Of a stretch of 27,032 nucleotides of DNA, positions 697 through 25,646 are shown piece after piece. The first letter of the stretch is position 1. Every line of letters begins with the position of its first letter. The position numbers were made by a program, and so were the translations under genes. The notes beneath the pieces are model-generated. The model searched no databases. It saw nothing but the letters and a program-made list of their open reading frames with translations, and was not told where the DNA came from. Source of the stretch: a virus; IMG/VR virus record IMGVR_UViG_3300023301_000079, positions 1-27,032 of that record, one strand, 5' to 3'.

Positions 697-1893
697 TTAA
701 GAGTAAATATAAATTTCTCCATTTGCTGCAGAAAAAATGTTACCTTTTTTAATGTATTTAGCTACTACTGAAGATGGGTCTGATGTTGTGCCCTCTATTA
801 CTAAAGACATAAAGGCATCTGGTATCAAAGAATTTTGTGATGCATTAAATGAACCAGTTACCCCCCAACGAGAAACTCCTGAATCCCATCCTAAGGCCTC
901 GGCATCTGATGACCCTACTTGTTGAATTGCTATACCACCATCACCATTTGCTTGTGAACCAGAAGCCATTCTAATAAATCTATCAGTTATGTCTAAGTTA
1001 GTTTCACTATTAAAAGAAGCTGTACCTTGTACTGTTAAGTTTCTGGTGACTATTAAATCTTGCCCAATTGTTACATCTTGAGATAAAGCAACATCCCCTG
1101 ATGAAACTGTAAAGTTATTTGATGTGAATGAAGCTACACCTTTATTTGCAGATGAAGCATCTTCTCCAGAAATAGTGATTGATTGACCGCTCGCTACTGT
1201 ATTAATACCTTCACCAGCTAAAATTGATAGAGATTGTGTTTTTAATGCTACAGTACCTGTTCCTGTTTCACCTGCTGTTGTTAAGTTAGAAGCTATACCT
1301 GTAATATTAGAACCATCTCCTTCAAATGAACCACTGAATGATCCACTTGCAACTACACCTGTAAGTGTTAAGCCTGCTACTGAAGAAGCGGTTGCTCCTA
1401 AAGATACTGGAGTTGAACCTATAGTTATGGCACTGTTTGTTAGTTTGGAGTTTGCAATTGATCCTGCTAACATGGAGTTAGTAATACCTTCTGCTTTTAC
1501 ATTTAAAGTATCCGTTGAAATTTCAATTGATGAATTATCTACGTTTACTGCTAATGCTGTTCCTGCACCACCTACTAAACCTGCCCCTGCAACTGAAGTT
1601 GCAATTTGAGTTGATGTGATTCCTGCATCCGCTACTTTTACACCACCCCCGGTTACTGTTAAAGTAGAACCATCAGCTTGTACTGAGAAAGTTGTTGGTG
1701 ATGAACCATCATAGGGTCCACCGGTTAAACCATTACCTGTTGATAAATTAGGTAAGTCTGAGGTTCCTGTGAAGGACCCACTAAATGAACCTGTAAGAGT
1801 GGCTCCGGATTGTCCATCTATTAAATAGTTTGAGTTATTTGCTAATTGTGATATAGCAGATCCACTAACTATTACTTTTTTCCAATTTGCCAT
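697..1893 (-). CDS. Tail fibre / appendage-like structural protein
   Basis: This 398-residue protein is dominated by Ser, Thr, Gly, Ala and Val with almost no Cys, typical of repetitive beta-structured phage fibres. It starts MANWKKVIVSGSA. It then has repeated short units (TLTGSFSGSFTG near residue 33 and SGSFSGSFEGDGSNITG near residue 183). The C-terminal third contains a more complex globular region with RFIRMASGSQANGDGGIAI and EALGWDSGVSRWGVTGSF. Similar wording occurs in fibre-like proteins of marine myoviruses, from general knowledge of the family. It lies downstream of the gp15-like gene with another small fibre-like gene between, so it is probably part of the tail or adhesion module. 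The shared N-terminus with the truncated gene at the left edge suggests gene duplication. Confidence 0.65.
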   Translation of the reverse strand: MANWKKVIVSGSAISQLANNSNYLIDGQSGATLTGSFSGSFTGTSDLPNLSTGNGLTGGPYDGSSPTTFSVQADGSTLTVTGGGVKVADAGITSTQIATSVAGAGLVGGAGTALAVNVDNSSIEISTDTLNVKAEGITNSMLAGSIANSKLTNSAITIGSTPVSLGATASSVAGLTLTGVVASGSFSGSFEGDGSNITGIASNLTTAGETGTGTVALKTQSLSILAGEGINTVASGQSITISGEDASSANKGVASFTSNNFTVSSGDVALSQDVTIGQDLIVTRNLTVQGTASFNSETNLDITDRFIRMASGSQANGDGGIAIQQVGSSDAEALGWDSGVSRWGVTGSFNASQNSLIPDAFMSLVIEGTTSDPSSVVAKYIKKGNIFSAANGEIYIYS

Positions 1894-1961
1894 TTTATTA
1901 CTTTATTTTAAGAAGTTGTTTTTATTTTATTTATTATACATATTATAGAGAAATGTGGTAA

Positions 1962-2327
1962 TTATAACCCTACATAAAAATCATTAGAATGGTATGCTAT
2001 TCCCCCAGTAATAGCTGTGGGTAATGTGTCAAATTCTAATAGTGATAAAATACCTAAATTATCTATTTTTATACCATTATTATCTATATTTTTTATTAAT
2101 ACTAAATCTAAATTATTAATATCATGTATCTCGAATCTTGCCCCAGAAGAAGGACCACCTATGCCTAGGTTAATACCATCAAACTGTAGTTGGGCATTAC
2201 CCTGTATTTCTGTGGTACCAGTAGCTGTAAGAACATAGTTATCTACATTATCTATAACACCAGTTACAGAACCCCCAGCAGAGTATGCTCCTACTTTTAA
2301 ACTATCTACAAATCGTATATTACTCAT
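1962..2327 (-). CDS. Short fibre-like structural protein (121 aa)
   Basis: The product starts MSNIRFVDSLKVGAYSAGG. It contains the segment NYVLTATGTTEIQGNAQLQFDGINLGIGG, written here in parts: NYVLTATGTTEIQGN, then LQFDGINLGIGG. This LTATGTT ... LQFDG..LGIG pattern is common in phage tail-fibre repeats. The C-terminus (GGIAYHSNDFYVGL) resembles the end of such fibres. At 121 residues it is much shorter than typical fibres, so it may be a small accessory tip, a truncated duplicate or an assembly subunit. It starts 9 bases after the gp15-like gene ends, in the same apparent operon. The assignment rests on motif style only. Confidence 0.6.
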   Translation of the reverse strand: MSNIRFVDSLKVGAYSAGGSVTGVIDNVDNYVLTATGTTEIQGNAQLQFDGINLGIGGPSSGARFEIHDINNLDLVLIKNIDNNGIKIDNLGILSLLEFDTLPTAITGGIAYHSNDFYVGL

Positions 2328-2336
2328 TTTTTAGTG

Positions 2337-3317
2337 TTATTTTAAAGTATTACCTGGGGTTATATCTGATATGTTAGAAATACCACCTTGATTTTCCCTT
2401 TGACGTCTTGTTCTTCCATCTTTAGTTTTTGTTACTCCTTCTTTAAATATCTCACTATTCGAAGTAGTTTCCATTGAAATTATAAATTTGGATTTTGAAT
2501 TATATTTAGAAATAGAATTCATATCTTTTTGGATAGTGTCTGGTATAATATATCCTCTTAATCTAATATTAAATGTTCCTTTTACTAATCTATCCTCCCC
2601 GGTTGTAAGTTCAGTTGCTGTAGTAAAACTATCAATAAATGCCCTAAATTTAAATCTCTCAGGATTACCCCAGTATGCATCTGATGCGTATTCACATGCT
2701 TCTATTATTTTATTTAGTTGTTCCATGTAGTAGGTTTGGACTATTACACTATATTCTAAGTTAACGAAATCAGGAACAGCTACAGCATAAAATTGTTGTG
2801 CAGGAATTGCGTTGTTAATAGCTGAGAAGTTGCTGTAGAAGTTTTTAGGATTATAGGCACGTTGAAAAGATCCGTATAAGTTAGGGCTATTTGCATCTAA
2901 CTTATTATAGGTAGTTCGATCCTTTGTGATAGAGTTTCTTTTTACTACTATAATAGGTAACATTATTGCTCCCTTTTTATCTCTATAATAGTTGTCTTTT
3001 TGAAAAGATTTCCACCTTTCAGGAGAACCATAAATTATGGGTACTTCTCTTCTTTCACCATTTTGATAAACAAAGGGTTTAATCACATTTTCAAAATAAT
3101 AAAAAACAGCCTCATCTAGGTCCTTTAAACCAATTGAGAAAGGTTTGGTAGTATCACCAGCCCAAGATAATTTCTCAGATCTATTAAATTCAATACCTGT
3201 TTGACTTTCATTAGAATTTAAAGGTATATTAGGATTACCATATCTAGAGGTAGAAGGTACCTGTTGATCTATACTTAGTTCTTTTTGGGTTTTGGGTATG
3301 GGTTTTCTTATTGCCAT
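2337..3317 (-). CDS. gp15: Tail completion / sheath terminator protein, T4 gp15-like
   Basis: This protein is predicted to cap the tail tube and sheath and join the tail to the head neck, as gp15 does in T4. Several blocks line up with what I remember of T4 gp15. VPIIYGSPERWKSFQKDN matches the VPITYAS...F block. LEYSVIVQTYYMEQLNKIIE matches the YELSIFTRYEDDMFQIVEQ block. TFNIRLRGYIIPD matches the FEVNGWMYPP block. It is 326 residues against roughly 270 in T4; the extra length is mainly a charged N-terminal extension and a C-terminal tail (TKTKDGRTRRQRENQGG). Its place just after gp14- and gp13-like genes supports the call. The ATG at 3317 is preceded directly by an AT-rich TATAAATA. Confidence 0.68.
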   Translation of the reverse strand: MAIRKPIPKTQKELSIDQQVPSTSRYGNPNIPLNSNESQTGIEFNRSEKLSWAGDTTKPFSIGLKDLDEAVFYYFENVIKPFVYQNGERREVPIIYGSPERWKSFQKDNYYRDKKGAIMLPIIVVKRNSITKDRTTYNKLDANSPNLYGSFQRAYNPKNFYSNFSAINNAIPAQQFYAVAVPDFVNLEYSVIVQTYYMEQLNKIIEACEYASDAYWGNPERFKFRAFIDSFTTATELTTGEDRLVKGTFNIRLRGYIIPDTIQKDMNSISKYNSKSKFIISMETTSNSEIFKEGVTKTKDGRTRRQRENQGGISNISDITPGNTLK

Positions 3318-3336
3318 TTATTTATATTTTTTACAT

Positions 3337-3870
3337 CTAGAATCTTTCACGATATGGTGAAATTGATACTTTATCACTTGGAATATAATAAGTTGAAACT
3401 AGAATTGAAACATTTTCTCCAAATTTATCTAGGCCCGGGTTTAAAGGATTTTCAGTACCATCAGAATTATTATTGGGATAAGCAGGATTTTTACCACCCC
3501 AATATTGGTTAGAAACGGTACTCTGTACACCATAATATCCTTCTTGGTATAGAATAATATCCCCTACTTCAGGAACAACATTTGCTACTTTTAAATCATC
3601 TCTTAGAAAATAAAAGTCAATACTTTGAGCAAATCGAATTCCTTCTCCATCTCCACTATATTCCTGGTCTTTTCTGTTTATTAAAACGTTGAATAAGAAG
3701 GGACCATTGTAAAATTTTTCACCAGCCGCCTCACCATATATATTTACTTTAGTTTCTTCTAATTTAAATTGGTATATAGCACATTGTTGGGTAATAATAT
3801 TACCCATTAATTCACGATTTAAATGTTTTAACAAAGAAGTATCTCTCTGTCCTGTATACATTGCTGCCAT
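3337..3870 (-). CDS. gp14: Neck protein, T4 gp14-like
   Basis: This 177-residue protein follows the gp13-like gene with a 1-base gap. It contains SIDFYFLRDDLKVANVVPEVGD and then IILYQEGYYGVQSTV (quoted in two parts), a pattern resembling the neck-protein core in which a VPE.GD.I.Y segment is followed by a beta strand. In T4, gp13 and gp14 form the neck collar that closes the filled head before tail attachment. The N-terminus (MYTGQRDTSLLKHLNREL) is helical and also typical of this family. It is shorter than T4 gp14 (about 256 residues). The call leans on order (13-14-15) as much as on motif similarity, so another neck or head-closure protein is possible. Confidence 0.55.
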   Translation of the reverse strand: MAAMYTGQRDTSLLKHLNRELMGNIITQQCAIYQFKLEETKVNIYGEAAGEKFYNGPFLFNVLINRKDQEYSGDGEGIRFAQSIDFYFLRDDLKVANVVPEVGDIILYQEGYYGVQSTVSNQYWGGKNPAYPNNNSDGTENPLNPGLDKFGENVSILVSTYYIPSDKVSISPYRERF

Positions 3871-3871
3871 A

Positions 3872-5050
3872 TTATCCTATATAAATAAATGTTGGGATTC
3901 CATCTAATTCTTTATCTCTACTTTCTTTTTCTGCTGCCCTTCTAGCTAACAATGAAGAACGAGAGGTTTCATCAAAATATGCTCTCAATCTTTCTAATAA
4001 TGATATTTTTTCAGTAGTTGCTGCTCCTAGTAAATCTGCTTGATTTAGAGTTATATCAGAGTTAGGAATTGGAATAGTACCATATTTACCTCTAACATAT
4101 CCTAAAATTTCTTTAGATATTGCTAGGGTATATTCAAAAACCCATTGTCTACCTATTGAATTTATCAAATCATAATTAGGATTAGAATAAGGCATATTGG
4201 AAGCATTAGTGACCTGACCTAATGATGGTTTTACACTTTCGCTTATTCTTTCATTTACTTTAATATATTCAAACCATATATTACCGGCCATAGAACCCGT
4301 ATCCGAGACATCTACATTATGAACATAGGGACCAGGGATTGGGAATACTCTTAATATGTTATTATGCATTTCAAAACTATAATTAGACATTCTAACCGTA
4401 TTGTTCATTTCAATAGCCTGAATGAGTTGGATATCATAACTAAGAGGCATCATTAGGTAGTTAGAACCAATCCCCATCATTCCCGCTGCTGGGGCTCCCC
4501 CAAAACCAAAACCAAAACCACCATAAGGGGCTAAGTATTGAGCAGATGCCGGAACAGGCTCTTGGTAAAATACTCTTTGGATTTCTATACTCCCTGTTAT
4601 ATTTTGTGATGCAGCCCAGGCTTTTAGATCATAATCTTGAATACTAGAAGTAAGAGCGATACTTCCCTTATACCAAGGTACATTACCACCGGTACCAGCC
4701 GAAGCCCCATACTGTTCGGACATCTTGATAATTGGTCCTAAATTTGGGGTTATTATACTATTATTTAAATCTACAAGGTCTTCAATTTCAAACCCCTCTA
4801 AAGATAACATATTATCTCTAACAATGTATGAATATAATTCATTACCATATATAGTAATTGCTTCTTCAAAAGCTGTAAAAAATGAACTAGATTGTAGTTC
4901 TATATCAACTAATGGATAACCTAACCTAATAGCACAAAACTCTGCTACTTTTACACAGTCAACTTGAAAATCAACACTGCTGTTGTAAAAACCAAAAGGC
5001 ACGGAGTTAGGATTCCATATTGGGTTACCATCATATATAGGTACATTCAT
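3872..5050 (-). CDS. gp13: Neck / head-completion protein, T4 gp13-like
   Basis: This 392-residue protein probably closes the portal vertex after packaging. The N-terminal region holds VAEFCAIRLGYPLVDIEL followed by FFTAFEEAITIYGNELYSYI, a helical block I associate with neck proteins of marine T4-like phages. Near the C-terminus are WVFEYTLAISKEILGYVRGK, IPIPNSDITLNQADLL, and the ending IPTFIYIG, which resembles the terminal P..F..G of gp13 relatives. A Gly/Ala/Pro/Met-rich insert (around residues 170-195, GGFGFGFGGAPAAGMMG) is unusual and may be a flexible loop. It is longer than T4 gp13 (about 309). The recurrent ATATTTATAA box lies 12 bases before the ATG, so this gene probably begins a transcript. 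Confidence 0.58.
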   Translation of the reverse strand: MNVPIYDGNPIWNPNSVPFGFYNSSVDFQVDCVKVAEFCAIRLGYPLVDIELQSSSFFTAFEEAITIYGNELYSYIVRDNMLSLEGFEIEDLVDLNNSIITPNLGPIIKMSEQYGASAGTGGNVPWYKGSIALTSSIQDYDLKAWAASQNITGSIEIQRVFYQEPVPASAQYLAPYGGFGFGFGGAPAAGMMGIGSNYLMMPLSYDIQLIQAIEMNNTVRMSNYSFEMHNNILRVFPIPGPYVHNVDVSDTGSMAGNIWFEYIKVNERISESVKPSLGQVTNASNMPYSNPNYDLINSIGRQWVFEYTLAISKEILGYVRGKYGTIPIPNSDITLNQADLLGAATTEKISLLERLRAYFDETSRSSLLARRAAEKESRDKELDGIPTFIYIG

Positions 5051-5062
5051 AGTGTAATTTTG

Positions 5063-5073
5063 TTATAAATATG
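5063..5073 (-). promoter_or_regulatory. Recurrent ATATTTATAA box before the gp13-like gene
   Basis: The coding strand reads CATATTTATAA, 12 bases before the ATG at 5050. It is one of six near-identical copies at 12-18 bases before start codons. It could be a -10-type late promoter with a very short leader, or a translation-start element. A second related copy in a dyad lies about 120 bases further upstream. Confidence 0.5.
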
Positions 5074-12266: not shown

Positions 12267-12277
12267 TTATAAATATT
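12267..12277 (-). promoter_or_regulatory. Recurrent ATATTTATAA box after the portal gene
   Basis: The coding strand reads AATATTTATAA, 16 bases before the ATG at 12250, in the 36-base gap after portal. Its presence in so short a gap between two co-directional genes suggests selection for it rather than chance. Confidence 0.5.
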
Positions 12278-14221: not shown

Positions 14222-14232
14222 TTATAAATATT
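14222..14232 (-). promoter_or_regulatory. Recurrent ATATTTATAA box before the portal gene
   Basis: The coding strand reads AATATTTATAA, 18 bases before the portal ATG and in the 31-base gap after terminase. It may let portal be expressed apart from terminase. Confidence 0.5.
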
Positions 14233-14234
14233 AT

Positions 14235-17075
14235 TTAAAGAAGCCATTTAATGGATTCTTGTTTTCCATCTATTTCCTGATGGTAAGGATTATCAGTTCC
14301 TTGTGAAAAGCCATAACCTCCTTGATATGATGTTCTGTTTACTTTTATACTACTTAAAGCATTTTTAGTAGCCTGTAATCCTTGTTGGTTTAATTTTAAA
14401 GCAGTATCTCTAATGTACATCCCTATACCAAAAGACATTACTAAGTCATCATTGTACCCACTTTGAGCCTCTGCTCGGTTATTCCTCCAAATAAAGGTTT
14501 TCATTTCTTCTATTAACCTTTTTGATTGAATAGTTACACCTTTATCACCAACATATTCTTGAAATTTACCTATAACCATAGGTCTAGTTCTAGAGGACAT
14601 TGTAAAACCTGCTACTCGTTTTGAATTATCTTGGTATTTGTCAAAATACGAATTGGCTGTTGGGGAATCACTCTTTTGTGAATAATAAAGGTTAGGGTAT
14701 TGTCTGTCTATAGCGACTTGTATTGTTGCCCAACCTATGTTAGCATTTTCTATTACTAACATTGCCTCATTATATTCTGTGGCTAGTCCTACTAATAAAT
14801 GACCAAATTCTTTTGTACCTAATTGTCCTTTATATTCAGCAACTTGCACATTATTTTCTACGTCAATTACGTGACAGGCCGAATTATCTTTACCATCTCC
14901 ACGGGCTACATCGGCTACAACAATATATTCTCTAGTGTAGTCAGGTGACTCCCAAACCCACAAATTTTTATCCGCCCCTCTTCGCTCCATAGGGTCCTTT
15001 ATAAATGATTTTTCATAATATTCTATATTTTCATTATAAAATACTATATCACCTGATGTACTGAAGTCACAATCACATTCTTGTGCCGCTAATCTAGGGT
15101 CACCTAATAGAGCATCTTGAGCATCTCTCCATATTTGGTCTCGTTCTGGGTGTACATACCAGGGTAATTTTATTGGTAAAAAGTCGTTTTCTCTATTTTC
15201 TGCTTTAACCCAGGTTTGATGGAACCAATTACCAGTTCCATAAGGTGTGGATAATACAATTGCCCCACCCCCTGTATTATGGTTCACTATGTTATTGGCA
15301 ATAAAAGAATGGGATGAGGGTATCTTTAAATCGTAGGTTTCAATTTCCTCATGTTCTTCTATAGATATTATCTCATTATAATAAACTTCGTCTAATAAAT
15401 TAAATTGATATTCTAATTCTTTATATTCAGGAAGAGAAGGATTACAATTTTTTAATAATTGTATTGTAGCCTGTTTAGATATATTTTTATTGTTCCTCCA
15501 TAAAAAACCTTCAATATTAGTGAATTTTCTATTCCACCCAGATAAACTATACCCACTTTTTTTAATAAGAGAACTAATTAATGGTGGGTTAATATTATTT
15601 AAATTAATACCACCCCAATCTTTTATATTTTCTAATAGAGTCTTGTTATTTTGTTTTCTTTCTAATTTAAATCCTATATTATCATAGAATTTTATGCTAT
15701 TTTCTTTATTTATGTCTAATCTATACCCCTCAGAATCTACAGATACCAGTTTGTTTTTCTTCCAATAGACTTTTTTAAACTTGGATTTAATCCCAAAATT
15801 TAAAAGCATTATGTGGATATCTAAAACTAGCTGTTTTGATGTAGAGACATAGGATATTCCTTTCTTATGAGCACACCCATCCCCATCAAAACAACCACTT
15901 AAAAATTGTATTTGTTCTTCTTTTGAAGATGCTAGTATATGTGAAGGGACTAATTTATTGGAAGCACCTGAGGGAATTTGGAGGAATTCTTTAAATAATT
16001 TATAGGTTATGTTGGATGATAAATTATAGTTAACTCTTCCCCCATATTTAAACCCTATGGATTCTAACCAATTTTGAAGGGGTTTATCCCCTGTTGCTAT
16101 ATTAATCCTACGTTTACCATAACTACCTTCAGCTACCCATAACCCAATCAAATATGCTAAATCTATATTGTTTAAACTCCAAGGTTTTGTGTTAAAATGT
16201 TCATTTTCATATTTTGGGTAAACAATGGGTTTACCAAAAGTATTTTGATTATAAACACACTTTATAGTATCCCCAGGTTTAAGGTGTTGGGTTTGAATCC
16301 ATTCCTCTTTTTGGGTTAGAAGTGGGTGTTCTTTGGTTGTTATTAAATGATTACCATCTTCAAACGAAATTTTATATGTTTGAGATTTTGGGGATTTATA
16401 AAAATGAGTGGTTTTTTCAATTTTGTTATCTCTATTGAATATTGAAATTTCTAGGTCATTAAATCCTTCTTGGGGGTCCTTATATAAATCCTTAATCCTA
16501 TATAAACCCTTAGATGTATAAACTATACTATTTTCCTCAATACAAGCTAGAGTTTGCTGTGCAGAAGCCCAAGTTTCAGCAATATTATCAATAAAGGCCG
16601 CTTCATCTATTATTAGCAAGGATACTGCCTCTGAACGTGCAGCATCTACATTAGAAGATTTTGCTTGGATTTTTGAACCGTTTGATAATCTAAGAGATAA
16701 TTTATTATTTTCTTCAGAATCTACTTTTAACCATGAAGGTAAGTTCTTCCACATAAATTGAACTTTAGTTACTAAGTTTCTTGCAGTTGCTTGTGTTGTT
16801 GCTAAGGCTAATATATTTTTATCCTTGTGAAAAGTCATTAACCAAAGAGAATAACCAGCAGATAGGGTTGATATACCTAATTGTCTAGATTTTAATATAG
16901 CGGTGTAATCGTGTTTTTGAAATAACGTTAGTACCTTTTCTTGGAAGGGAAATAAATTAAATTGTATGCGCCCACGTTGGGGGTGTTGTATATAACAATA
17001 TTTACGCATAAAATGTACAGGGTCTTTACAACAGCGAAGGTATTCTTGGCGTATTACTTGTTTTATATCTGACAT
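14235..17075 (-). CDS. gp17: Terminase large subunit (gp17-like) with in-frame intein
   Basis: This DNA-packaging motor cuts and pumps phage DNA into the head through the portal. The 946-residue product is an N-extein of 177 residues, a 423-residue intein (178-600) and a C-extein of 346. The joined exteins give 523 residues, near the family size. The ATPase has a Walker A-like SRQLGIST (63-70) and Walker B LLIIDEAA (153-160), with the coupling motif LSTPYGTG (608-615). The nuclease domain has VVADVARGDG (Asp722), LVIENANIG (Glu776) and YNDDLVMSFG (Asp876/877). No small terminase is seen next to it. The intein must splice out for activity, because it splits the ATPase between Walker B and the coupling motif. 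The gene starts 4 bases after the spanin-like gene. Confidence 0.96.
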   Translation of the reverse strand: MSDIKQVIRQEYLRCCKDPVHFMRKYCYIQHPQRGRIQFNLFPFQEKVLTLFQKHDYTAILKSRQLGISTLSAGYSLWLMTFHKDKNILALATTQATARNLVTKVQFMWKNLPSWLKVDSEENNKLSLRLSNGSKIQAKSSNVDAARSEAVSLLIIDEAAFIDNIAETWASAQQTLACIEENSIVYTSKGLYRIKDLYKDPQEGFNDLEISIFNRDNKIEKTTHFYKSPKSQTYKISFEDGNHLITTKEHPLLTQKEEWIQTQHLKPGDTIKCVYNQNTFGKPIVYPKYENEHFNTKPWSLNNIDLAYLIGLWVAEGSYGKRRINIATGDKPLQNWLESIGFKYGGRVNYNLSSNITYKLFKEFLQIPSGASNKLVPSHILASSKEEQIQFLSGCFDGDGCAHKKGISYVSTSKQLVLDIHIMLLNFGIKSKFKKVYWKKNKLVSVDSEGYRLDINKENSIKFYDNIGFKLERKQNNKTLLENIKDWGGINLNNINPPLISSLIKKSGYSLSGWNRKFTNIEGFLWRNNKNISKQATIQLLKNCNPSLPEYKELEYQFNLLDEVYYNEIISIEEHEEIETYDLKIPSSHSFIANNIVNHNTGGGAIVLSTPYGTGNWFHQTWVKAENRENDFLPIKLPWYVHPERDQIWRDAQDALLGDPRLAAQECDCDFSTSGDIVFYNENIEYYEKSFIKDPMERRGADKNLWVWESPDYTREYIVVADVARGDGKDNSACHVIDVENNVQVAEYKGQLGTKEFGHLLVGLATEYNEAMLVIENANIGWATIQVAIDRQYPNLYYSQKSDSPTANSYFDKYQDNSKRVAGFTMSSRTRPMVIGKFQEYVGDKGVTIQSKRLIEEMKTFIWRNNRAEAQSGYNDDLVMSFGIGMYIRDTALKLNQQGLQATKNALSSIKVNRTSYQGGYGFSQGTDNPYHQEIDGKQESIKWLL
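15276..16544 (-). mobile_element. Intein with LAGLIDADG homing endonuclease in terminase
   Basis: The intein begins with Cys178 (CIEENSIVYT) and ends with His-Asn (ANNIVNHN, Asn600); the first C-extein residue is Thr601. The splicing block B-like region is HLITTKEHPLLT (243-254). Two LAGLIDADG motifs are present: LIGLWVAEG (309-317, acidic residue Glu316) and LSGCFDGDG (392-400, Asp399). Both acidic residues are intact, so homing activity is likely retained. After the endonuclease a helical basic region (about 498-545, with ISSLIKKSGYSLSGWNRKF) may be an extra DNA-binding part. It is inserted in the most conserved ATPase region, the usual choice for inteins. Confidence 0.93.
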
Positions 17076-18303: not shown

Positions 18304-18314
18304 TTATAAATATG
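18304..18314 (-). promoter_or_regulatory. Recurrent ATATTTATAA box before the 179-residue gene
   Basis: The coding strand reads CATATTTATAA, 15 bases before the ATG at 18288 and overlapping the last base of the gap after the kinase gene (stop at 18315). It could start the transcript running through spanin-like genes into terminase. Confidence 0.5.
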
Positions 18315-18863
18315 TTAAGATTGTATAAAATGTAAAAGTTGTAAGATTCGTTCTTCTGTAGACCCGGATAGTATTCCAAGTTTGTTGATTTTATGGTCGT
18401 GTTTCTTAATTAAATTTACAATTGTTGAATTTATTAAATCTCTATATTGTTCGTTTGTTTCTCTAATACCATTAAACTCAATAGGGATACCTTCAGGTGA
18501 AATATAAAAGATATAATCATACTCACTAATAAAATTACTGGCATAGGTTTCAAATAAATCCTTGTCTGATTGTTTTATTGATTTGGATTGGGAAGTAAAG
18601 GCCATAACATCAATAATAGTCCTATCTGTAATAATATTTTCATGCATCAACTCACTACACCTTTCAGCTAAAAATATTGTTTGCCCCTTTAACGTAGAAT
18701 CTGTATTTAACGGAATACCTAAGGACATTAAATGTTGACTTCGTTCTGTTGCAAAGGTATAATCTTTAAATTGCTCTAATTTTTTTAAAGAATTTACCAG
18801 AGAGGTTTTGCCAACACTCATGGTACCACATATTCCTATGCGATTTGTTTTTCTTTTTTCCAT
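18315..18863 (-). CDS. P-loop NTPase / kinase, NadR (AAA_28)-like
   Basis: This 182-residue protein has a clear Walker A loop GTMSVGKTS (13-21). A second family feature is HENIITDRTIIDVMAFTSQS (Asp80-Arg81), the DRT..D pattern of small-molecule kinases and the NadR-like AAA_28 group. YDYIFYISPEGIP (about 115-127) is the strand and loop that usually follows the core in these kinases. Such phage proteins probably phosphorylate a nucleotide or nucleoside-like substrate; the exact substrate cannot be read from sequence. It lies between a small conserved gene and the acidic 179-residue gene. A metabolic role rather than a structural one is likely. The family call is good, the substrate unknown. 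Confidence 0.78.
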   Translation of the reverse strand: MEKRKTNRIGICGTMSVGKTSLVNSLKKLEQFKDYTFATERSQHLMSLGIPLNTDSTLKGQTIFLAERCSELMHENIITDRTIIDVMAFTSQSKSIKQSDKDLFETYASNFISEYDYIFYISPEGIPIEFNGIRETNEQYRDLINSTIVNLIKKHDHKINKLGILSGSTEERILQLLHFIQS

Positions 18864-18867
18864 ATAA

Positions 18868-19134
18868 CTAATTTCTATAATCTGAAAGTGATGCTTTCAT
18901 AGATTGGTTTTTGTAGTAGGGTAGTCCTTCTCTTTGTTGTCTAGCTTCGTTCCATTCATCTTTAGTATGTTGAATACCGTATAAATAGTATTCAGCATTT
19001 TTTCTTTTACCTTCGGGTATAAGAGCGGGTCCTTCCCATTTATGAAGTTTACCATCCCAAACATACGCTATGGTACCATCTTCTTTTTTTAATTTTCTAC
19101 TCTGTGGGAATGGTGTCTTTTCTATTTTAGCCAT
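18868..19134 (-). CDS. Small conserved hypothetical protein (88 aa)
   Basis: The core is AYVWDGKLHKWEGPALIPEG (23-42) followed by KRKNAEYYLYGIQHTKDEWN. The pattern of W-DGK-H-EGPA-IP-G-EYY-YG resembles the short WDGK..H...GPA repeats common in phage and bacterial proteins of unknown function, related in look to MORN/YwqK-type repeats. It ends 4 bases before the kinase gene, so the two are probably one unit. An exact T4-type TATAAATA box lies 55 bases upstream of the ATG on the coding strand. No catalytic motif is evident. Confidence 0.65.
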   Translation of the reverse strand: MAKIEKTPFPQSRKLKKEDGTIAYVWDGKLHKWEGPALIPEGKRKNAEYYLYGIQHTKDEWNEARQQREGLPYYKNQSMKASLSDYRN

Positions 19135-19257: not shown

Positions 19258-20553
19258 TTATATTAAATTACTAACACAATGAGCTCCCTGTGCTGCACTT
19301 ACTGCTATCCCCCTTGAACTTAAACTATCTCCAACAAAGTGTATATTGGGATAATCCACTAAAGATAGATCACTGTATTTAACTAAAACCTCTTCCGATA
19401 AAAACTTGACTTCTGGGATATATATCCCATAATCATCTCCAAATTCAAACACAACATTTAAATCTGCTATGAAATTAACTATATATTTAGCGTATTCCCC
19501 ATAAGATCGTTTAAATAAATCTAGACTATCTAATTCTAAAACATTTTGGGGGTTACCTTCGGCATTTAATGATGGTTTGCGAGTTTGATTTGGAGAGTAA
19601 TATAACCCCCTATAATTATTTTGACATTTGTCTACTAATTGTTTTTGAAATTCAAACGGATATTCTATCCCTTTAATTTCCATAATAATACCAAAGTTAT
19701 TCATATTATTAATCATATTCTCTTGTTTAAAACTATGACCGTTATATGATTTCATACCATATGTATTTTCTTCTGCTACATATGCACCGCCTGAATTAGT
19801 GCAAAAAGTTCGGAGAGATATTTTATCATTTGGTTTTTGGTATAATTTGAAATCATAGGATATATCTAACATTTTTTGAGTGTATTTTTGTGGTAATTCC
19901 ATTCTAACCCCAATTTGTACACTTTTTGGTTCTTTCTTTAAATTATATTTATCTATTAATTTTTGAGTTAAATCTATACCTGATTTTCCAGTGCCAAATA
20001 TTAATTTATCAAAAGTTACTTCAAAATCTTCGGTATATATTTTTTGTTGTTCAAAATCTATATCTTGCACACTAGTTTCCCATATAAATTTTACATCTTT
20101 TTCTACTAACCAATCATACCATTTTTTACCTAAATCATGTAAATAATTTGTTCCTATATGATAGGTAGGAGCCATTCTTAAATTAAAATAAGGACGTATA
20201 AATTCAGGTTCCTCTACAGGGTTAGAAAACATAACTTTTGATTTATCGGGGTGAAATCGTAATAATACTTCCCAAGTTTCATCTATAAGTTGAGTAGCTT
20301 TACCATCCCCAACATATTTAGATAGATGCCCCCCAATAGTATTATGTAAATAAACCCATTTCCCATCTGAAAAAAGTCCACACCCGGCGTATCCTTCCAT
20401 TACTTCTTCGGGTAATCTATTATAAGGGTCTTTGCCTTTATCTATAATAGTAATTAATTCTCCAGGATACCCGTTATCTATTAATTTTGTAGCAGCATTA
20501 ATTCCACTTACTCCACTTCCTACAATAACGATTTTGTTTTTTTTATTATTCAT
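19258..20553 (-). CDS. FAD-dependent dehydrogenase, COG2509-like (auxiliary metabolic gene)
   Basis: This 431-residue flavoprotein has an N-terminal dinucleotide fold (VIVGSGVSGINAATKL, Gly12/14/17; acidic strand end Asp38). Next comes GCGLFSDGKWV (57-67), matching the G..FSDGKL signature of uncharacterised FAD-dependent dehydrogenases. Other family marks are HIGTNYLHDLGKKWYDWLVE, IFGTGKSG, QIGVRMELP and LRTFCTNSGGAYVAEE. The C-terminal FAD contact is HFVGDSLSSRGIAVSAAQG (405-423). The substrate is unknown for this group. It has no obvious virion role and is set apart by a strong terminator upstream and its own leader, so it looks like an acquired metabolic gene. It is full length with no frameshift. 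Confidence 0.85.
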   Translation of the reverse strand: MNNKKNKIVIVGSGVSGINAATKLIDNGYPGELITIIDKGKDPYNRLPEEVMEGYAGCGLFSDGKWVYLHNTIGGHLSKYVGDGKATQLIDETWEVLLRFHPDKSKVMFSNPVEEPEFIRPYFNLRMAPTYHIGTNYLHDLGKKWYDWLVEKDVKFIWETSVQDIDFEQQKIYTEDFEVTFDKLIFGTGKSGIDLTQKLIDKYNLKKEPKSVQIGVRMELPQKYTQKMLDISYDFKLYQKPNDKISLRTFCTNSGGAYVAEENTYGMKSYNGHSFKQENMINNMNNFGIIMEIKGIEYPFEFQKQLVDKCQNNYRGLYYSPNQTRKPSLNAEGNPQNVLELDSLDLFKRSYGEYAKYIVNFIADLNVVFEFGDDYGIYIPEVKFLSEEVLVKYSDLSLVDYPNIHFVGDSLSSRGIAVSAAQGAHCVSNLI

Positions 20554-20626
20554 ATTTATATTTAAATCCCTGGTTTGTTTTTTGTCTTTTATTACTATCT
20601 TTTTACTAATATTGATACTTTATTTA

Positions 20627-20640
20627 TGTATTAATATACA
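20627..20640 (-). promoter_or_regulatory. Dyad TGTATTAATATACA before the FAD gene
   Basis: A 5-base inverted repeat around TAAT lies just after the upstream terminator's T run and 73 bases before the FAD-gene ATG. On the coding strand CATAAATA, one base from the T4 late consensus, overlaps it on the downstream side. It may be the promoter or operator of the FAD gene. Confidence 0.3.
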
Positions 20641-20673
20641 AAAAAAAATGACGCAATCCTAATAATTGCGTCA
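20641..20673 (-). terminator. Rho-independent terminator upstream of the FAD gene
   Basis: On the minus strand a perfect 9-bp stem (TGACGCAAT / ATTGCGTCA) with a 7-base loop is followed by eight T. It ends the transcript of the upstream acidic gene and isolates the FAD gene. Confidence 0.87.
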
Positions 20674-20755
20674 CAGATGCGTTTTTTTGAGTTTTGAAAT
20701 CGAATGGGCTATGAATCCATTCTATAAGTTTTTTTGTTTTTATTAATGTTTTTTG

Positions 20756-20857: not shown

Positions 20858-21043
20858 CTATTCGAAACTATTTGAGGGCGGGTAATATTCTTCTTCCATG
20901 TTAGAGGTATCAAATTCGTCATGCTCCTCATCATATTCAACTTCCCCTACTTGACCATAATCTAACTTATACTCTGTATCATTGGTTGTTTGGGTTGTAT
21001 TTTCTTCTGCCAAGTATTTTCTAAATGTATATAGTTCTTTCAT
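20858..21043 (-). CDS. Small acidic protein (61 aa), possibly truncated by TAG
   Basis: The product begins MKELYTFRKYLAEENTTQTT and continues with an Asp/Glu/Tyr-rich tail (YGQVGEVEYDEEHDEFD) to a TAG stop. The opening MKELY.FR.YLAE is a style often seen at the start of small phage virion-associated proteins in this kind of cluster. No fold or active site is evident. The frame continues past the stop for 33 more codons of similar composition. The leader holds four TTATTATTC-type repeats and a dyad-framed ATATTTATA core. A terminator follows downstream, so this gene ends a transcript. Function unknown. Confidence 0.6.
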   Translation of the reverse strand: MKELYTFRKYLAEENTTQTTNDTEYKLDYGQVGEVEYDEEHDEFDTSNMEEEYYPPSNSFE

Positions 21044-25313: not shown

Positions 25314-25324
25314 TTATAAATATT
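25314..25324 (-). promoter_or_regulatory. Recurrent ATATTTATAA box before the 158-residue gene
   Basis: The coding strand reads AATATTTATAA, 15 bases before the ATG at 25298. It overlaps the stop of the upstream 99-residue gene. Confidence 0.5.
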
Positions 25325-25635: not shown

Positions 25636-25646
25636 TTATAAATATG
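25636..25646 (-). promoter_or_regulatory. Recurrent ATATTTATAA box before the 99-residue gene
   Basis: The coding strand reads CATATTTATAA, 13 bases before the ATG at 25622, in a 25-base gap. Together with the copy at 25314 it gives two boxes within about 320 bases. Confidence 0.5.

Follow-up and report, generated by a model that had tools for sequence, protein, structure and literature searches.

The COG2509 family of flavoproteins has members in Clostridia and includes VP0956, for which a structure is available (PDB 3nlc); despite this structure, no reaction assigned to the family was found. Among phages, a putative NAD(FAD)-utilising dehydrogenase (phrog_12409) is found in Campylobacter Fletchervirus, and an uncultured Caudovirales protein, A0A6J5M0P4, is assigned to COG2509 by database annotation only, so that the gene had previously been annotated in uncultured phage contigs. 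On the regulatory side, attenuation is typically recognised by competing RNA structures that share a strand. It is, to our knowledge, rare for a new structured regulatory RNA to be linked one-to-one with a single gene, and rarer still for such an RNA to be phage-specific.

The window analysed here, a stretch of 27,032 nucleotides representing the IMG/VR virus record IMGVR_UViG_3300023301_000079, carries a gene of this known kind behind an elaborate leader. The reading that is preferred here, and considered reasonably probable from sequence comparison, is that of an autonomous flavoenzyme gene, read-through into which from the upstream genes would be controlled by a new kissing-loop attenuator. 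A gene with the appearance of stray metabolic cargo also turns out to be a constant component of a widespread phage lineage, under separate regulation.

The flavoprotein gene and its predicted product

The gene for a COG2509-type FAD-dependent oxidoreductase of 431 amino acids starts with ATG and occupies positions 19258-20553 on the minus strand; the interval up to 20673 given in an earlier, sequence-only reading of this DNA also takes in the leader and the terminator. A search against Pfam gave a general FAD/NAD-linked reductase match and nothing more specific, and PHROGs gave a full-length match to phrog_12409, 'dehydrogenase' (E 2e-23). The profile built from 15 phage homologues and compared with all PDB chains by hmmsearch had VP0956 as its top match (E 2.1e-8). 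The AlphaFold2 model (pLDDT 83, pTM 0.81) likewise ranked 3nlc first in Foldseek and was aligned with it by VIA-align over 382 residues (Z 28.0, rmsd 3.9), with HI0933/aminoacetone oxidase as the runner-up group (Z 19). By sequence profile and predicted fold the flavoprotein is a member of COG2509 with a predicted enzyme activity, and it may oxidise or reduce a small molecule.

The signatures of FAD binding comprise GxGxxG (VGSGVSG, residues 11-17), FSDGKW (61-66), GTG (187-189) and a C-terminal GD (408-409), and D38 represents the acidic residue past the second strand. Residues G12, G14, S62, D63, K65, G189, G408 and D409 are invariant across the 15 phage homologues, those of Campylobacter phages among them. 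The sequence-only description of a COG2509-like flavoprotein with an intact dinucleotide fold and an FSDGKW signature is therefore borne out, while of the 'NAD-utilising' label the predicted model backs the flavin domain alone. Besides the profile match and the fold, the protein shares with VP0956 and the Clostridia members the FSDGK signature and a conserved SFC/TFC segment. It differs from them in its low identity (about 16-30%), its shorter length, the lack of the CMCPGG variant of VP0956 and its placement in a separate phage clade.

Bacterial relatives confirmed by tblastn number 461, and the phage-homologue profile matches bacterial loci with E of about 1e-40 to 1e-44; the nearest bacterial homologues are 25-31% identical. 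Inspection of 80 bacterial loci revealed no shared gene neighbourhood and hence no functional clue. The giant virus Terrestrivirus, too, encodes a COG2509-like protein (BFVD A0A3G4ZPX6), the predicted fold of which is similar.

Gene neighbourhood and origin

A scan of viral contigs with the homologue alignment as query revealed at least 592 confirmed relatives of the flavoprotein. Across about 100 loci the gene order is flavoprotein, 88-aa protein, AAA_28 kinase, two small genes, terminase and portal. In the window the 88-aa protein, which has no assigned function, is encoded at 18868-19134, and the P-loop kinase of the AAA_28 type (nucleoside/nucleotide kinase-like; PF13521, E 9e-9; phrog_2107 and phrog_3462) at 18315-18863, both on the minus strand. 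Of the 68 loci where the downstream sequence extends for 4.5 kb or more, 67 have the kinase, 59 the 88-aa gene and 60 the terminase. The location of a redox gene amid morphogenesis genes, which had seemed unusual from the single sequence, is thus the rule in this lineage. The flavoprotein gene is conserved in these phages and evolves under purifying selection, with dN/dS among close relatives of about 0.15, compared with 0.10 for the terminase.

In some phages GIY-YIG endonuclease genes, a pyrimidine-dimer-glycosylase-like gene or a five-gene cassette are inserted at the flavoprotein spot. In about ten phages (L010, L006, L116, L124, L131, L157 and L177 among them) the cassette separates the flavoprotein gene from its partners. 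Its products include an AAA ATPase and a protein resembling metallopeptidases/VWA proteins, both recognised by eye, together with a DUF6884 protein recognised by Pfam. The terminase large subunit of the window (14235-17075, minus strand) contains an intein with a LAGLIDADG domain at about residues 178-600 of 946; only 3 of 72 related terminases have this length (those of the window, L110 and L111).

According to the portal protein, the closest cultured phages are Flavobacterium phage immuto (55%), with which the window is collinear, and Microcystis phage Mel-JY01; the flavoprotein gene is absent from both. The phage collection searched contained no cultured phage with both the gene and the leader element described below. 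The source lineage is one of T4-like phages that probably infect Bacteroidota. In immuto (L189) the AAA_28 kinase is located elsewhere, and a 907-aa gene annotated as NadR and a 5'-nucleotidase are found at 1132-5012, upstream of the terminase. This NadR-like gene and the resemblance of the conserved kinase to the NadR kinase domain were the starting point for considering an NAD-salvage cassette. The proposal was dropped, as the kinase fits thymidylate/nucleoside kinases as well as or better than the NadR kinase domain, and adenylyltransferase-like matches in large contigs are weak.

In an earlier interpretation the flavoprotein gene was an auxiliary metabolic gene acquired from the host, with late expression serving to alter the redox metabolism of the host. 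The metabolic type of the enzyme and its distant homologues in Clostridia and other bacteria agree with this interpretation. However, no close copy was found at E<=1e-15 in 296 sampled Bacteroidota genomes, where the reference genome alone has a distant homologue, and no late-type motif precedes the gene (see below). The donor phylogeny that had been suggested was constructed: the copies from T4-like phages fall into a single group (99*) on a long branch of their own, the Campylobacter phage copies are nearest and Clostridia-type bacterial sequences stand apart, but owing to very long, saturated branches no donor can be named. A recent transfer from the host is rejected, since Bacteroidota genomes lack a close copy and the tree unites all T4-like phage copies. 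The auxiliary label is thus unsupported, and host origin with late expression appears unlikely.

The leader RNA element and the promoters

The leader contains an RNA element consisting of two hairpins with complementary 9-nt loops capable of a 6-bp kissing interaction, and the 3' strand of the second hairpin is common to a terminator. All components in the window are on the minus strand. The first hairpin, P1 (20702-20722), pairs GAATGG and CCATTC around the loop ATTCATAGC, and appears in a plus-strand listing as a terminator-like site; the second, P3 (20668-20680), pairs GC and GC around the loop ATCTGTGAC. The kissing pair of the window, TCATAG (20714-20709, loop 1) with CTGTGA (20676-20671, loop 2), is shifted by one base. 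The intrinsic terminator (20639-20674) comprises an 11-bp stem (20674-20648), the 5' arm of which shares bases with loop 2 and the P3 3' strand, and a U-run. The window element folds with z = -3.5, none of 200 shuffles being as stable, and here too the most stable fold is the terminator. The shifted kissing pair, the P3 of just 2 bp and a -33 box reading TTAG make it an outlying representative. The strong terminator noticed in the sequence-only reading is real and belongs to a conserved RNA element, of which it forms the 3' end. The dyad noticed in the leader corresponds to the palindrome GTATATTAATAC (20628-20639), visible by direct reading, and shares positions with the -7 box of a promoter-like site.

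Placed side by side, the upstream regions of the relatives show a hairpin with the loop ATTCATAGC, followed after 20-30 nt by AGCTGTGGC, which leads into the terminator. One copy of the element is present in each of 175 loci, representing 135 distinct sequences. A simple H-type pseudoknot was replaced by two kissing hairpins after the covariation of P3 emerged. In the alignment of 62 non-redundant elements the 14 pairs of P1, P3 and the loop-loop helix are 98.2% paired against 81.5% in shuffles; the covariation score is 0.435 against 0.123, a value reached in none of 500 shuffles, and sliding the partners by 1-3 columns lowers pairing to 27-53%. Compensatory changes are found in all three helices, including both-sided changes at 5 of 5 P1 pairs. 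Since P1 pairing had been required for the collection of these 62 elements, the matches to the loop pattern collected regardless of the stem are important, and 162 of 163 of them have all five P1 pairs perfect. P3, the short stem around AGCTGTGGC, is paired in 132 of the 135 unique elements (shuffled mean 49), and both P1 and P3 are recovered in the relatives by RNAalifold, unprompted.

The kissing combinations observed are CATAGC/GCTGTG, CATTGC/GTAGTG, CATTAC/GTAGTG and TATAGC/GCTGTA. The search for them demands complementarity; yet all 11 hairpins with CATTGC or CATTAC had a matching second loop in the matching place. Four of the six kissing pairs never vary in the alignment, and direct kissing covariation therefore rests on few alternative loop pairs. 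In most elements the 5' arm of the terminator extends over loop 2 and P3, and in 113 of 135 it includes the 3' nucleotide of P3, with the three-way identities (P3 5' / shared / terminator 3') being G-C-G in 54, C-G-C in 23, T-A-T in nine and A-T-A in six; the U-run at the terminator is weak in a few elements. As judged from this comparison, the structure of the element is close to certain. Duplicated forms also occur: in L005 (5297-5934) and L142 (9447-9925) a doubled P1 hairpin flanks an inserted small gene, as though the element's first half had been duplicated by the insertion, and L258 (10177 and 11613) has two elements about 1.4 kb apart, with the kissing sequences CATTAC/GTAGTG and CATAGC/GCTGTG.

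The element might instead act as DNA, as a packaging, recombination or homing site, as each genome has one copy, no further than about 10 kb from the terminase, and homing endonuclease genes are nearby. However, the kissing helix contains an invariant U-G pair and P1 shows G-U changes, both of which fit RNA, and the element is always in the sense orientation of the flavoprotein gene. A DNA site is thus very improbable.

Scanning viral contigs with a DNA pattern for the element alone, ignoring the protein, revealed 114 new loci. In all 111 loci with room for it, the flavoprotein gene follows the element within four ORFs, and in 92 it is the very next one; the contigs of the remaining three run out within 1.5 kb. 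The genes upstream of the element vary between loci. A covariance model built from such loci, the window included (its match there is by construction), found one significant copy in 11 of 15 large phage contigs, always just upstream of the flavoprotein gene. The other four keep the gene without a recognisable element, suggesting that the switch is not essential. In Bacteroidota genomes a single weak match (28 bits) was found, with no phage gene nearby. A search of the window against Rfam 15 gave no family at or above gathering, and neither a permissive search with the element (ncr1241, 20.9 bits against a cut-off of 60) nor a search with the elements of six relatives gave anything above noise; known riboswitches and Rfam families were rejected as its identity.

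A promoter-like site of the Bacteroidota type, TTAG-N20-TATATT (20633-20662, minus strand), has one mismatch to TTTG-N20-TATnTT and overlaps the terminator. The motif TTTG-N18-21-TATnTT is present upstream of the flavoprotein gene in 72 of 139 relatives (1.6 expected from shuffles), with a spacer of 20 nt in 65 of the 72. Perfect copies precede the 88-aa gene (TTTG-N20-TATATT, 19185-19156) and the gene starting at 21043 (21123-21094). The consensus of Bacteroidota sigma-ABfr promoters is TTTG / TANNTTTG (PMC6847099); the phage motif is similar in TTTG, the 20-nt spacer and the TATnTT box, and differs in that its -7 box usually lacks the final G and its -33 box is often inside the terminator loop, the -7 box in many phages lying past the U-run.

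Another motif, ATATTTATAA, occurs in six copies on the minus strand of the window (5063-5072, 12267-12276, 14222-14231, 18304-18313, 25314-25323 and 25636-25645), each shortly upstream of a minus-strand gene, a number reached in none of 100 shuffles. In relatives it is located upstream of three structural-cassette genes in 25/40, 20/55 and 32/85 cases, and represents a candidate late promoter of the phage lineage. It was found upstream of none of 92 flavoprotein genes. Together with the promoter motif of the gene itself, this supports separate control and leaves late control unsupported; the conserved switch-like RNA with its terminator and overlapping host-type promoter goes beyond the independent control originally proposed. 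A T4 late promoter TATAAATA touching the start codon (20553-20560) was rejected, as it looks like AT-rich chance.

A possible transcription switch and its known counterparts

The element likely works as a transcription switch. The flavoprotein gene, long resident in the T4-like phage lineage and predicted to encode a soluble FAD-dependent oxidoreductase, would be transcribed from its own host-sigma-type promoter, and since this promoter is downstream of the element, the latter would act on read-through only. Transcripts from the upstream genes would run into the RNA attenuator before the flavoprotein gene. When the loops of P1 and P3 kiss, P3 would hold the strand that the terminator needs, and the polymerase would continue through the flavoprotein gene and the genes next to it; if kissing fails to occur or is not stabilised, the stronger terminator would form and transcription would stop. 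A metabolite, a protein or a ribosome may set the switch. The median energy of the terminator hairpin is -16.8 kcal/mol, compared with -10.2 for P1 and P3 without kissing, suggesting that stopping is the default and that stabilised kissing leads to read-through.

The same locus could be described as the 3'-end structure of the upstream operon, in which a terminator and a stabilising or processing hairpin shield the flavoprotein promoter and nothing switches. P1 begins at a median of 10 nt past the upstream stop codon, the terminator is the most stable fold, in the window as well, and the promoter of the flavoprotein gene is downstream, all as expected of such a structure. However, it is the upstream genes that vary and the downstream gene that is constant, a second hairpin with a complementary conserved loop would be superfluous for a plain terminator, and a strand common to P3 and the terminator with three-way covariation is a mark of alternative structures. 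A passive 3' end is therefore regarded as unlikely. Two structures that compete for one strand and are both selected suggest attenuation, and the compensatory changes, the strand common to terminator and antiterminator and the single associated gene are the features of an attenuator.

The position of P1 also bears on what may set the switch. In most loci it is near the upstream stop codon (quartiles 6-24 nt), within reach of a terminating ribosome, which might cover P1, block kissing and let the terminator form, with read-through when upstream translation is slow or absent. About a quarter of the elements, however, are more than 24 nt from the stop, and the loops are far more conserved than this mechanism requires, making ribosome coupling distinctly unlikely. 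The attenuator may alternatively be a new phage-specific metabolite-sensing riboswitch, its ligand tied to the reaction of the enzyme and turning on read-through into the flavoenzyme and kinase genes. This is a tentative suggestion with well under an even chance of being right, and if true it would offer a route to finding what the uncharacterised COG2509 enzymes act on. The comparative evidence for the element is strong and comes from more than 100 viral contigs.

Among known systems, A0A6J5M0P4 is the close counterpart of the protein (44% identity, model TM 0.91). The Campylobacter Fletchervirus gene is alike in its full-length homology (26-27% identity), its T4-like phage context and its single copy, but its neighbours are dUTPase and clamp loader genes, and a search with the RNA element gave no significant copy there. 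No record of the leader RNA having been described was found, and on sequence evidence it is the RNA that is new, an attenuator-like element with kissing loops that is confined to a single gene of one phage lineage. It resembles transcription-attenuation riboswitches and attenuators in its aptamer-like conserved loops, loop-loop pairing, common strand, U-tract terminator and single regulated gene. Unlike those systems, it has no match in Rfam 15, and it combines a two-hairpin layout joined by a 6-bp kissing helix with a second promoter that overlaps the terminator.
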